From positions 1 to 32,383 of the forward strand of contig CAIVCR010000112.1 in NCBI GenBank assembly GCA_903904515.1: a DNA stretch of 32,383 nt, read 5' to 3'. Shown here one piece after another: positions 23,807 to 31,651 of this stretch. Position numbers and translations under genes: made by a program. This DNA comes from an uncultured Bacteroidia bacterium. GTDB taxonomy: Bacteria > Bacteroidota > Bacteroidia > Bacteroidales > Prolixibacteraceae. Positions within the stretch are counted from its first letter, which is position 1. Each line of letters opens with the position of its first letter. Below the pieces are notes generated by a model. The model was given only the letters and a program-made list of their open reading frames with translations, was not told where the DNA came from and did no database searches.

Positions 23807-23934
23807 CTAAAAAGTATAATTGATCAATTTGCATGCGAAGATAGTAAGGATTTCTATGATATTATTGGTCGGCAATCGGGGTAGCTTAAAAGTGAAAAAG
23901 TATATCATTCAAACAATACTTCTTTTTAATATTT

Positions 23935-23994
23935 TTCGAACAGATTTTAAATATGTTCGAAACATGCTGAATAATATGCATTTAAAATTGAACA
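23935..23994. promoter_or_regulatory. Operator-like cluster 1 (TTCGAACA repeat, AACATGCTGAATAATATG, GAACA)
   Basis: TTCGAACA (23935-23942) and TGTTCGAA (23954-23961) form a perfect 8-bp inverted repeat with 11 bases between. AACATGCTGAATAATATG follows at 23961-23978 and, 11 bases later, GAACA at 23990-23994. The same block and spacing recur at 28124-28157, so a shared regulator is likely (inference). Confidence 0.6.
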
Positions 23995-24027: not shown

Positions 24028-24258
24028 TTTATATATAGCACTTTTTGTCGCGTAAAATCAAGCAAGAATTAAAGTTAACCAGTCCTGATTTTAGCTGAAG
24101 GAAACCAGAAACCATTTTAAAACCTGGCAAAACTGAAAAGTCAGATGACCAGGAAAACTTAAAACCAATAAAAATCTAACTTGATATTTAAGGACTTTTG
24201 AAAGGTATAAAGAGACCGGTTTTTTTTGTTGTCCAGCTTTCCTAACGATATTGGTATA

Positions 24259-24297
24259 ATGGAGGAATCCGAAAATCCGTGAAAAGAGTAGGAAAAT
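24259..24297 (+). promoter_or_regulatory. Degenerate copy of the shared leader element
   Basis: TGGAGGAATCCGAAAA and then GTGAAAAGAGTAGGAAAAT, ending 26 bases or so before the ATG at 24319. Compared with 28415-28481 it keeps TGGAG..TC(C)GAAA and TGAAAAG...AGTAGG but lacks the middle CCTGATG and the GGGGC arm, so it could not fold as the same pseudoknot. Confidence 0.4.
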
Positions 24298-28021: not shown

Positions 28022-28157
28022 ATATCGAACAGACTCTGTTTATTTGCTTCTGAAAAGAGTAAAAGACGTTCGATATAGGCTGTATGGGGTGTAAATGGTG
28101 GGGGTAAAATTGAATTATCTAAAAACATGCTGAATAACATGTTCTTGGAAGTGAACA
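28022..28157. promoter_or_regulatory. Operator-like cluster 2 (ATATCGAAC repeat, AACATGCTGAATAACATGTT, GAACA)
   Basis: ATATCGAAC (28022-28030) and GTTCGATAT (28068-28076) form a perfect 9-bp inverted repeat. AACATGCTGAATAACATGTT at 28124-28143 is itself an inverted repeat (AACATG-N8-CATGTT). TGTTC (28140-28144) and GAACA (28153-28157) add another pair. The AACATGCTGAATAA block and the 11-base distance to GAACA match cluster 1. Confidence 0.6.
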
Positions 28158-28389: not shown

Positions 28390-28414
28390 ATTCGTTAAAA
28401 ATATTCATAGAAAC

Positions 28415-28481
28415 AGTGGAGTCGAAACCACTTAAAAAAACGGGGCGGTACTGAAAAGCCTGATGAGTAGGGAAAATTTAA
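28415..28481 (+). promoter_or_regulatory. Candidate structured leader RNA, copy B
   Basis: Hairpin AGTGG/CCACT (28415-28419 with 28428-28432), an A-rich linker, then GGGC (28443-28446) pairing with GCCT (28458-28461) and TACT (28449-28452) pairing with AGTA (28466-28469): an H-type pseudoknot. The core TGAAAAGCCTGATGAGTAGG is repeated exactly at 29929-29948. It ends 22 bases before the ATG at 28494. ATGAGTAGG inside it could also start a 13-codon frame that overlaps the next start codon. Confidence 0.5.
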
Positions 28482-28493
28482 CGATGAAAAAAA

Positions 28494-28904
28494 ATGAAAA
28501 CTAACAAAATTTTAGTCGGTGGTGTTGTTGGAGGTGTTGTTTTATTTTTAGTTAGCTGGGTAGTTTGGGGAATCCTTTTGAAGGATTTCATGATTGCCAA
28601 TTACAACCAGTGTTTTATGAATAAAGATATGATCTGGTGGGCTTTGATTGTTTCCAATATTGCTGTTGGATTGTTGTTTTCCACAGTATTTAGCTGGGCT
28701 AAAACCAGTGGAATTGTGGACGGGGCAAAAGGTGCTGCTATAATTGGTTGCCTCGTAACGGTTTTTATAGATCTTCAGTTTTATGCAATGAGCTCCATGT
28801 TTAATGGTATCGGAATTGTTGCAGTGGATATCCTCTTGTCAACAGTGGTATTTGCCATCGGCGGAGCAGCTGTAGCCTGGGGTATGGGTCTTGTAAAGGA
28901 TTAA
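28494..28904 (+). CDS. Small four-helix membrane protein, function unknown
   Basis: 136 residues with four hydrophobic segments: ILVGGVVGGVVLFLVSWVVWGILL, MIWWALIVSNIAVGLLFSTVF, GAAIIGCLVTVFIDLQFYAMS and VAVDILLSTVVFAIGGAAVAWGMGL. Only the loop after helix 1 (KDFMIANYNQCFMNKDM) is polar, with one cysteine. I do not recognise a named family, although Gly-rich N-terminal helices of this type are frequent in conserved hypothetical membrane proteins of Bacteroidota. It has a long regulated leader that shares elements with the gene at 24319 and with the DUF4242 gene. The ATG at 28494 overlaps a short upstream frame ending at 28504. Confidence 0.78.
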   Translation: MKTNKILVGGVVGGVVLFLVSWVVWGILLKDFMIANYNQCFMNKDMIWWALIVSNIAVGLLFSTVFSWAKTSGIVDGAKGAAIIGCLVTVFIDLQFYAMSSMFNGIGIVAVDILLSTVVFAIGGAAVAWGMGLVKD

Positions 28905-28956
28905 ATTCTTTTGCTTTTCCAGGGGTTGATGGCGTTTTTAACGCTGACAATCGTTA

Positions 28957-29054
28957 AGATTTGCACTAACCGGGTCTGACAGTTGCCTCTTTTCGTTAAT
29001 GGCAAGCTTAAACTCTCAGCTACTGGATTACCGGTCTCCGGTTAGTGCAAATCT
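28957..29054. repeat. 98-bp inverted-repeat element
   Basis: AGATTTGCACTAACCGG (28957-28973) is repeated as an exact reverse complement at 29038-29054, a perfect 17-bp pair around a 64-base interior. It fills most of the gap between two membrane-protein genes. No clear target duplication flanks it and the interior has no open frame, so it could be a tiny mobile element, a transcribed hairpin or a long-stem terminator. Confidence 0.7.
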
Positions 29055-29105
29055 GTCTTTACAGGATTCCAAAACCAACGGATACGAAGATTAAACACTA
29101 AGTTC

Positions 29106-29741
29106 ATGGAAAAATCATATAAATATTTGGGATATTTTCTGATGCTGCTCATTCCCCTGACCATCGCCGGTTTCTATAAGACCTATATTGGCCTGTTTCC
29201 CGACTTTGGCGAGAGAATTGATTTCTATATCCATCTCCACACCCTCTTTGCTTCACTCTGGATTGTGATGCTGATTGTTCAGCCAATCTTAATTGTGAAT
29301 AAGAAATGGGCACTTCACCGCAAGGTTGGCAAACTCTCCTATGTTCTTTTTCCGCTCCTTATCCTCTCATTTATACCCCAGATGATTAAGATGGTTAACC
29401 GGGGAGAGGCTCACGACCTTTTTTTCCCGGTCAGCGACAGCATCATGCTGACGCTCCTTTATTCCCTGGCGATTTATAACAGGAAAAGAAGCTCGAGGCA
29501 CATGCGTTATATGATTGCCATAGCCCTGGTATTTTTAGGTCCGACAATCGGGCGGATTGGCCCGCACCTGTTGGGATGGTCAATGCTTTTCACACAGAGT
29601 CTTGTCTATGCAATCATCTATTGCATACTGGTGAGCCTTATAATTTATGACCGCTGGAATAAGCGGCAATTTCGACCCTATTTAATTGCAACGATCTTCT
29701 TTGTCATTCACCAATCGGTTTTTTACTGGGTGTTCTTGTAG
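29106..29741 (+). CDS. Multi-pass membrane protein, DUF2306-like layout
   Basis: 211 residues with about six to seven membrane segments. Seen: IDFYIHLHTLFASLWIVMLIVQPILI followed by KKWALHRKVGKLSYVLFPLLIL, and later FLGPTIGRIGPHLLGWS. The histidines at the start of the second helix and in LHRKVGKLSY resemble the HxHxLxA...Q...LHRxxG pattern of DUF2306-type and related uncharacterised membrane proteins, where haem binding has been suggested but not, to my knowledge, shown. It follows the 98-bp inverted repeat and has its own ATG, with no overlap on either side. Function unknown; family assignment tentative. Confidence 0.75.
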   Translation: MEKSYKYLGYFLMLLIPLTIAGFYKTYIGLFPDFGERIDFYIHLHTLFASLWIVMLIVQPILIVNKKWALHRKVGKLSYVLFPLLILSFIPQMIKMVNRGEAHDLFFPVSDSIMLTLLYSLAIYNRKRSSRHMRYMIAIALVFLGPTIGRIGPHLLGWSMLFTQSLVYAIIYCILVSLIIYDRWNKRQFRPYLIATIFFVIHQSVFYWVFL

Positions 29742-29815
29742 AGGTTTTATTAAAAGTCAGTTGTCACGGAAAGCTCGCTTAATGAAACGTAAAGTTTTAA
29801 GCCATGATATTTCTC

Positions 29816-29845
29816 CTTTGCGCTCCTTGCGTCTTTGCGTGAAAC
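29816..29845. repeat. TTTGCGCTCCTTGCGTCTTTGCGTG dispersed-type repeat
   Basis: CTTTGCGCTCCTTGCG followed by TCTTTGCGTGAAAC: three CTTTGCG/CTTGCG words in tandem. I know very similar 'CCTTGCGTCTTTGCGTGAAA' phrases as dispersed repeats in many Bacteroidota and other genomes. Only one copy is in this window. Confidence 0.5.
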
Positions 29846-29893
29846 CATTTTAGATTCTTTTTTTCCTTTTGAAGTAATCTTTGCGCGATAGCA

Positions 29894-29955
29894 GGAGGAG
29901 ACCGACCTCCATAAAAACGGGGCGTAACTGAAAAGCCTGATGAGTAGGAGACTAA
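29894..29955 (+). promoter_or_regulatory. Candidate structured leader RNA, copy C
   Basis: Hairpin GGAGG/CCTCC (29894-29898 with 29906-29910), linker ATAAAAAC, then GGGC (29920-29923) with GCCT (29935-29938) and ACT (29927-29929) with AGT (29943-29945). The hairpin sequence differs from copy B but keeps the pairing, while TGAAAAGCCTGATGAGTAGG is identical. It ends about 20 bases before the ATG at 29968. ATGAGTAGG opens an eight-codon frame that stops 4 bases before that ATG. Confidence 0.52.
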
Positions 29956-29967
29956 AAATTTAAGAAT

Positions 29968-30240
29968 ATGCCAAAATATGTAATCGAGCGGGAAATTCCC
30001 GGGGCAGGTAATCTGACTACTGAACAGTTGAAAGGGATTTCACAAACCTCCTGCGGAGTTTTAAGCAAAATGGGTTCAGAAATACAGTGGCTTCAAAGCT
30101 ATGTAACGACCGACAAAATTTATTGTGTTTATATCTCGCCTAATGAAGAGTTGGTCCTTGAGCATGCCAGACAAGGTGGATTTCCTGCAAATAGTGTGAG
30201 CAAGGTATCAGCAATTATTGATCCCACTACAGCGGAATAA
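29968..30240 (+). CDS. DUF4242 family small protein
   Basis: 90 residues, soluble, no signal peptide. Motifs VIEREIPGAGNLTTEQL, VLSKMGSEIQWLQSYVT, KIYCVYISPNEELVLEHARQGGFPAN and the C-terminal TIIDPTTAE are those of DUF4242, small ferredoxin-like-fold proteins; one Streptomyces member has been described as binding nickel. The role here is unknown. It is the cleanest gene controlled by the leader element (copy C), which ends about 20 bases before its ATG. Two hairpins follow within 85 bases, so it is likely transcribed alone. Confidence 0.88.
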   Translation: MPKYVIEREIPGAGNLTTEQLKGISQTSCGVLSKMGSEIQWLQSYVTTDKIYCVYISPNEELVLEHARQGGFPANSVSKVSAIIDPTTAE

Positions 30241-30724: not shown

Positions 30725-31651
30725 ATGAATAGCGATAAGAACATCCCCTCAGTACCTAGTCTTACACCCGAAAACTCACTGAAGACTCTTATTGAAAACC
30801 GAACCGTTTATAACCTGGAAAGTTGTGAGCTTAACCTTTTTGAAACGTATGAGAAATCGGCACAGGTCCCTTTAAAGTTTAATGATCTCGTTGTTACCAC
30901 TATGCTGAAGGGGAAAAAGGTAATGCATTTACTTGATAAACAAGGATTTGATTATTTACCTGGGGAGTCAGTTATTGTTCCGTCAAATACCGAGATGAAA
31001 ATCGACTTTCCGGAGGCCTCAATGGATAACCCAACCCAATGTCTTGCACTGGCAATTGATGATAAAAAGATAGCTGATACACTTAATTTTCTGAATGAAA
31101 AATATCCCAGAGAGGAAACCAAAAGCCAGTGGCAACTCAACAGGCAAAATTTCTTCTTCCAAAATAATGAAGAGATGGCCAGTATTATCAATCGAATGAT
31201 ACTCCTGTGCCAAAGCACTAACCTTTTTAAAGATACCCTGGCTGATCTGTCGTTACAGGAGTTACTGGTGAAAATTGTTCAATTACAAACCTTAAAAGAG
31301 GTGAATGAAGGTGATTCAAAAACATTTAATCAATATCTCCATCAGGTGGTTTCCATTATCCGGGTGAACCTCTCCAATAAAGTTGAACTTAAAACAATTG
31401 CAAATAAAGCTGGAATGAGTACCTCGGCACTTTACCGGTTATTTAAAAACGAATTGGGAATGAGTCCCATTGAATTTATCCTTCTGGAGCGGATAAAACT
31501 GGCTAAACACTATTTGACGGATAAGAAAATATTTATTAAGAATGTATCGTTTGAAACGGGTTTTCAGGATACCAACTATTTTATCCGTGTTTTTAAACAA
31601 TATGAAGGGATTACACCAAAACAGTATCAGCAATTGCTGCATAAAGAGTAG
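30725..31651 (+). CDS. AraC family transcriptional regulator
   Basis: 308 residues. The C-terminal 100 residues carry the double helix-turn-helix of the AraC family: ELKTIANKAGMSTSALYRLFKNELGMSPIEFILLERIKLAKHYL and then VSFETGFQDTNYFIRVFKQYEGITPKQYQQ. The N-terminal 190 residues form an AraC_N-type cupin/sensor region (LPGE-like YLPGESVIVPSNTEMKIDFPEA) that would bind the inducer. It converges on the DUF779 and aldehyde dehydrogenase genes 8 bases away; in related genomes such regulators often neighbour these genes, so it probably controls an aldehyde or alcohol catabolic function (inference). Confidence 0.92.
   Translation: MNSDKNIPSVPSLTPENSLKTLIENRTVYNLESCELNLFETYEKSAQVPLKFNDLVVTTMLKGKKVMHLLDKQGFDYLPGESVIVPSNTEMKIDFPEASMDNPTQCLALAIDDKKIADTLNFLNEKYPREETKSQWQLNRQNFFFQNNEEMASIINRMILLCQSTNLFKDTLADLSLQELLVKIVQLQTLKEVNEGDSKTFNQYLHQVVSIIRVNLSNKVELKTIANKAGMSTSALYRLFKNELGMSPIEFILLERIKLAKHYLTDKKIFIKNVSFETGFQDTNYFIRVFKQYEGITPKQYQQLLHKE

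Follow-up and report, generated by a model that had tools for sequence, protein, structure and literature searches.

DUF805 RNA leaders before unrelated small genes of Bacteroidota share a predicted pseudoknot core with DUF805b RNA

Why should two nearly identical structured segments stand just before the start codons of two unrelated small genes? We took up this question in a 32,383-nt contig of an uncultured bacterium of the Prolixibacteraceae (CAIVCR010000112.1; this whole stretch is called the window here), in which the initial annotation had described such a pair of leaders. We found both copies where it had placed them: the 20-mer TGAAAAGCCTGATGAGTAGG is present in each, with AAAACGGGGCG 5' of it and a hairpin visible in the letters, and the likeness of the two is far beyond chance. 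The annotation had recognized no published family in the element, but both copies match the DUF805 RNA of Rfam (RF03081; clan CL00115) over model positions 1-68, with 71.6 bits (E = 1.7e-11) for copy 1 and 59.9 bits (E = 9.3e-9) for copy 2, against a gathering score of 51.1 bits. Thus, the leaders are members of a known family and the element is not new; a hit to a known Rfam family had been named beforehand as refuting, and the claim of novelty falls because of this match, with a second family, DUF805b RNA (RF02914), matched nearby. No other Rfam family was matched at the leader positions in the window. The window copies have the same hairpin, GGC/GCC stem and place before a start codon as RF03081 and differ from it in nothing, the second stem (P2) described below being added by the present analysis. 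A resemblance of one segment to the hammerhead core had been mentioned together with the absence of the remaining fold, and we agree: no hammerhead model matched anywhere in the window (E up to 0.1), and we rejected that ribozyme.

The features of the window are collected in Table 1. Besides the two leaders, positions 24093-24294 hold a degenerate DUF805 RNA, with ACCA in place of AGUA, and a DUF805b RNA (gathering score 35.6 bits) in tandem, in the same leader and before one start codon. Pfam gives a name to just one of the three genes served in the window, that of the SCO4226-like protein, which had been called a DUF4242 protein from its sequence. The gene behind copy 1 had been described as a four-helix membrane protein; the 136-aa reading frame is there, but neither it nor the 151-aa gene behind the tandem has a Pfam match at E up to 0.001. 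We also noted a gene for an AraC-family regulator (Pfam AraC_N and HTH_AraC; 30725-31651) 3' of the second leader's gene, and a 17-mer, ACATGCTGAATAAyATG, at 23962-23978 and 28125-28141, upstream in two leaders carrying these RNAs, one of which also has the palindrome TTCGAACAGATTTTAAATATGTTCGAA at 23934-23960. Of 18 genomes of the genus, 4 hold the 17-mer, seven times in all, and it stands once in locus L253, 108 nt 5' of an element; the shared 17-mer and palindrome are perhaps the operator of a regulator.

Table 1. Positions of the RNA elements, their paired strands and the genes behind them in the window
Feature	Positions	Strand	Basis
DUF805 RNA (RF03081), copy 1	28411..28478	+	cmscan
Copy 1 hairpin, AGTGG/CCACT	28415-28419 with 28428-28432	+	letters
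Copy 1 P1, GGC with GCC	28444-28446 with 28458-28460	+	family covariation
Copy 1 P2, CU with GG, one U-G pair	28451-28452 with 28470-28471	+	family covariation
Copy 1 GAA opposite AGUA	28453-28455, 28466-28469	+	inferred module
Gene downstream of copy 1, 136 aa	28494..28904	+	ORF list
DUF805 RNA (RF03081), copy 2	29890..29954	+	cmscan
Copy 2 hairpin, GGAGG/CCTCC	29894-29898 with 29906-29910	+	letters
Copy 2 P1	29921-29923 with 29935-29937	+	family covariation
Copy 2 P2, CU with GG	29928-29929 with 29947-29948	+	family covariation
Copy 2 GAA opposite AGUA	29930-29932, 29943-29946	+	
Gene downstream of copy 2, 90 aa, PF14026 SCO4226-like	29968..30240	+	Pfam, E = 8.6e-27
Degenerate DUF805 copy	24093..24159	+	40.9 bits, under gathering score (51.1)
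DUF805b RNA (RF02914)	24259..24294	+	cmscan, 46.9 bits, over gathering score
DUF805b P1, GGA with UCC	24261-24263 with 24276-24278	+	
DUF805b P2, UCC with GGA	24268-24270 with 24291-24293	+	
Gene 3' of the DUF805/DUF805b tandem, 151 aa	24319..24774	+	ORF list

We examined the fold in about 270 relatives, mostly the best-scoring matches of the genomes searched rather than all of them: 183 DUF805 elements (106 and 77) gathered from fetched loci with a model built on 63 copies (ten added by hand, eight of those for showing variants), and 90 DUF805b elements excised at their Rfam positions. Among these relatives, paired changes occur in the hairpin and in both stems of the pseudoknot set out below. 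In the 63 partly hand-picked copies, 95.6 percent of hairpin cells are paired, with two-sided changes in all four pairs, which extends to the family the compensatory difference seen between the two window hairpins; the GGC/GCC stem (P1) is paired in 99.5 percent of cells in the same 63 copies. For P2 we used all 183 DUF805 elements, not the 63-row alignment, and tabulated the letters 5' of GAAAA and 3' of GAGUA with only these words as anchors, which parsed 168 of 183 DUF805 elements (15 unparsed) and 88 of 90 DUF805b elements (2 unparsed). In DUF805b, the outer P2 position is paired in 75 of 82 distinct cores, compared to 34.2 +/- 4.1 (maximum 49) in 5000 shuffles (relatedness among the cores is not removed by such shuffling), and it uses all four Watson-Crick types (GC 36, TA 24, CG 8, AT 5); the inner and middle pairs barely vary there and therefore say little. 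In DUF805, the inner pair forms in 106 of 109 distinct cores and the middle pair in 107 of 109, above their shuffled values (91.4, maximum 99, and 99.6, maximum 103, respectively), while the outer pair is unsupported (45 of 109; shuffle 38.5, maximum 49), such that P2 of DUF805 often has two pairs only. Sliding the partner strand lowered pairing from 397 of 504 cells in register to at most 257 in DUF805, and from 253 of 264 to at most 121 in DUF805b.

Since P2 (NCC/GGN') is interleaved with P1 (GGN/N'CC), a stem with over ten different sequences of three pairs in DUF805b, the pairing is that of an H-type pseudoknot common to both Rfam families. The comparison of sequences thus strongly supports a core predicted to fold as a tight H-type pseudoknot, in which the loop NCC pairs with GGN' after GAGUA. 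The initial annotation was right in proposing such a knot, as the family supports a second stem, but the register it gave (ACT/AGT) is not conserved: its letters can pair in both window copies, and it fits only 22 of the 109 distinct cores of DUF805 and, in DUF805b, 4 of 82. DUF805b (RF02914, same clan) has the same core as DUF805, namely P1, NCC, GAAAA, P1', GAGUA and GGN', but is without the upstream hairpin and AACGGGG, and its loop before GAGUA is longer and more variable. The RF03081 model prints the P2 strands as unpaired. The family was reportedly described in a 2017 paper, which may already have drawn the pseudoknot; we found no account of DUF805 RNA, the DUF805 motif or DUF805b in the literature searched. 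The sarcin-ricin (G-bulged) module has as its consensus AGUA facing GAA beside a helix. AGTA with two purines is present in 176 of the 183 DUF805 elements and YYGAAA in 173, counts to be read with the fact that the models that found the elements hold these letters. We infer, no more firmly than this way of finding the elements allows, that the invariant GAA and AGUA strands flanking P2 form a module of the sarcin-ricin (G-bulged, loop E) type.

The element is not confined to this locus. The counts that follow all include the window's own genome (seven RF03081 matches, six over the cut-off; two RF02914 matches, one over the cut-off). A search of relatives found RF03081 in 59 of 101 genomes (47 over the cut-off), with up to 17 matches per genome. 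In a draw of 392 genomes from across the phylum, 74 have RF03081 matches (59 over the cut-off) and 118 have RF02914 matches (74 over the cut-off). A sequence pattern found at least 118 stretches in genome contigs; among the 80 matches listed, most are titled Bacteroidota and a few Ignavibacteriae, Chlorobiota, Cloacimonadota, Bifidobacterium, Syntrophomonadaceae or Parcubacteria, and some of these non-Bacteroidota labels may be binning errors.

The genes behind the elements are very diverse. The 183 DUF805 elements gave 177 downstream ORFs (six gave none), which form 116 clusters, 91 with a single member; one of the 116 cluster representatives was left out of a follow-up analysis. At pattern-found loci, and with a simple ORF caller, the targets are enriched in exported and membrane proteins: an N-terminal hydrophobic segment is present in 0.58 of 114 targets compared to 0.32 of 629 other ORFs, and a lipobox-like motif in 0.20 compared to 0.05. 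Among the best 25 of 62 families in a Pfam tally of 104 of these 114 targets (ten were left out, mostly as doubtful assignments), the most frequent are SCO4226-like (9), TM2 (9), Por_Secre_tail (5), OMP_b-brl (5) and DUF805 (4). By eye, DUF805b lies directly 5' of double-glycine type leader peptides at eight loci (L332, L334, L338, L347, L352, L359, L368 and L385) and also precedes other small secreted proteins.

The distance to the start codon is nearly constant. Placement about 20 bases before unrelated genes had been noted for the window, where 22 nt (copy 1) and 19 nt (copy 2) separate the last G of GAGTAGG from the ATG; counted in the same way, 139 of 177 DUF805 elements lie 17-24 nt from the ATG, and for DUF805b (86 of 90 with an ORF) the median is 23, with quartiles of 21 and 26. 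Upstream, 182 stretches hold no promoter motif that is common or fixed in position: TANNTTTG is found in 39, TGACA in 34 and CTGACA in 6, at varying positions, and we rejected a promoter element. GCTGAC is over-represented in these stretches (8 compared to 0.7 expected), an excess that we attribute to a block like GGGCTGACCACCCAATGTGACA, which lies just 5' of the element in seven loci (L011, L018, L022, L036, L072, L111 and L259), L011 and L111 being near-identical. The elements are therefore phased to the start codon and not to a promoter. This points to translation initiation, and it is thus likely that the leader controls translation of the gene about 20 nt downstream. Of the earlier proposal of a cis-acting RNA that controls translation, the structured, cis-placed leader is borne out by these data, while control of translation keeps this lesser strength. 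A conserved upstream ORF beginning at the ATG of ATGAGTAGG was discarded, that ATG being present in 76 of the 174 elements in which GAGTA was found.

We considered whether the start site is hidden by the leader. The spacer is A-rich (0.55 A) and the start region is slightly more open than other starts (0.58 compared to 0.51 unpaired); thus we saw no sequestered start site or ribosome-binding site, the start regions being as open as others or more. No terminator-like site is present on the + strand between 28000 and 30300, such that neither form of riboswitch expression platform, terminator or sequestered start, was found at the window leaders or the start regions.

Copies outside the Bacteroidota came from a pattern scan of IMG/VR, which gave nine contigs, eight of them over the RF03081 cut-off. 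The gene that follows is shared by seven of the nine and codes for a protein of 89-96 aa with a QVVxG-type motif, which we read as cystatin-like and which has no Pfam match; leader and protein occur together at L389-L392, L394-L396 and L410 (viral contigs and a Bradyrhizobium plasmid). On the L396 contig there are also genes for an integrase, a DNA methyltransferase and an exonuclease. The conjugative plasmid pNK6d of Bradyrhizobium diazoefficiens carries an 82 percent identical relative of the protein, with an RF03081 match of 62.2 bits directly 5' of its gene. The element is also present in the Bacteroidota relatives L303 and L305; two Bacteroidota plasmids (L411 and L412) with more distant relatives, at 37 and 43 percent, gave no element match. 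Of 80 relatives of the protein, 19 are named Pseudomonas and 7 Chryseobacterium, most others having no name. The L390 protein is identical to P0001, from a cluster named Pseudomonas fluorescens, and the contig is therefore likely from Pseudomonas, an attribution made via the protein name and not via named Pseudomonas DNA.

At the eight GC-rich loci (GC 0.54-0.59), the elements are 0.91-1.00 identical in pairs. Between L396 and L410, element identity is 0.97, compared to 0.66 at third codon positions and 0.49 in the upstream 60 nt (Fisher p = 4e-6), and between L396 and L394 it is 0.93, compared to 0.53 and 0.51 (p = 7e-8), both tests using rounded identities and counts; the contrast is weaker for L389 and L410 (0.97, 0.79 and 0.76). 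Having diverged less than third codon positions in these pairs, the element appears to be under selection outside the Bacteroidota, in one gene family. A Shine-Dalgarno-like tetramer is in the spacer of 5 of 5 GC-rich copies tested, compared to 13 of 161 Bacteroidota copies, and the start site of the GC-rich copies looks adapted to other ribosomes. The joint occurrence suggests that element and gene are a transferable module. A common phage element was not borne out: against 50,697 phage records, the L396 element gave two partial matches, both weak (E = 0.8), a longer L396 stretch gave none in the same records, and the element had no match in the E. coli genomes searched.

Our leading explanation, which we hold tentatively and would not quite call probable, is that the DUF805 RNA is a pseudoknot leader likely to gate translation initiation, through an aptamer or contact with a conserved factor. 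P1 and P2 would stack into a compact knot, with the putative sarcin-ricin type module formed by the GAA and AGUA strands beside P2. The leader would then be an aptamer that recognizes a small, widely shared signal or, as an alternative within the same explanation, contact a broadly conserved factor, for example the 30S subunit. On binding, the knot would be stabilized where the ribosome footprint has its upstream edge, and the stabilized knot would change translation initiation, on or off. We propose a signal that is widely shared, or a factor that is broadly conserved, because the element also looks selected outside the Bacteroidota. The preQ1-I riboswitch is a very small H-type pseudoknot in which a 3' tail pairs into a hairpin loop. 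The DUF805 core is likewise a small H-type knot with a 3' tail into a hairpin loop, but has no Rfam match to preQ1-I, and its tail lies about 20 nt 5' of the AUG and not over the Shine-Dalgarno sequence. GEMM/c-di-GMP-I riboswitches, in the part of the published account available (PMC7266159), are found before a large number of disparate genes, as DUF805 leaders are, and by this analogy we prefer sensing, although DUF805 leaders give no match to the Rfam family of those RNAs. Weighing against our leading explanation, neither an alternative fold of the leader nor a sequestered ribosome-binding site was found.

Nearly as likely as an aptamer-type leader is one bound by a protein, in which a trans-acting RNA-binding or ribosomal protein would recognize the knot and the GAA and AGUA strands and co-control dispersed envelope and secreted genes, as the Csr/Rsm proteins co-control translation of dispersed genes in other bacteria. 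This possibility, to which we give less weight than to our leading explanation, is favored by the many copies before unrelated genes, the bias of the targets to exported and membrane proteins, and the fixed place of the leader, which the size of the 30S footprint puts just beyond its usual edge. However, the Pseudomonadota-type loci would require that two phyla possess the protein or one that takes its place, and no RNA-binding family recurs among the best 25 of 62 target families. A constitutive enhancer of translation or a 5' stabilizer, which would keep the start open or protect the mRNA and sense nothing, would fit the tight phasing and the A-rich, slightly more open spacer, but is improbable for genes that are lineage-specific, envelope-biased and not visibly housekeeping. 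Least probable of all is a mobile or repeat element that recombination has spread and that regulates nothing, since the 182 upstream stretches have no common flank and a passive repeat is not expected to show paired changes in its stems or phasing to a start codon, even granting the abundance of copies (at times a few kb hold several of them, ahead of different small ORFs), the upstream block common to seven loci (two near-identical), the co-occurrence of element and gene in distant hosts and, raising its chances a little, an integrase gene in L316, some 6.5 kb away from an element. We keep mobility as a rival because this integrase lies in one of seven regions mapped by ORF. It is a tyrosine integrase (Phage_int_SAM_5, Phage_integrase; L316 12518-13762) on a contig rich in elements, from genome G072. 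Spacing is irregular in the seven regions, and we set aside a regular cassette array.

We return to the aptamer-type leader, which we prefer, in considering what these RNAs may mean. In its broadest form, which we regard as doubtful, DUF805 and DUF805b would together be a superclass of minimal pseudoknot riboswitches (core of about 35 nt) for a cross-phylum signalling metabolite. They would govern the translation of many genes for envelope proteins, secreted proteins and peptides in each genome and would travel between phyla as a unit of leader plus gene. DUF805 RNA is a class common in Bacteroidota, and a shared core, predicted to be a pseudoknot, unites two Rfam families. The supported register of P2 tells which mutants matter, and the natural copies outside the Bacteroidota provide a handle on whether a ligand or a phylum-specific protein is recognized. 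The position of DUF805b before double-glycine type peptides hints at a tie to exported peptide products. If a messenger is indeed sensed, many uncharacterized envelope and secreted genes would gain one common signal.
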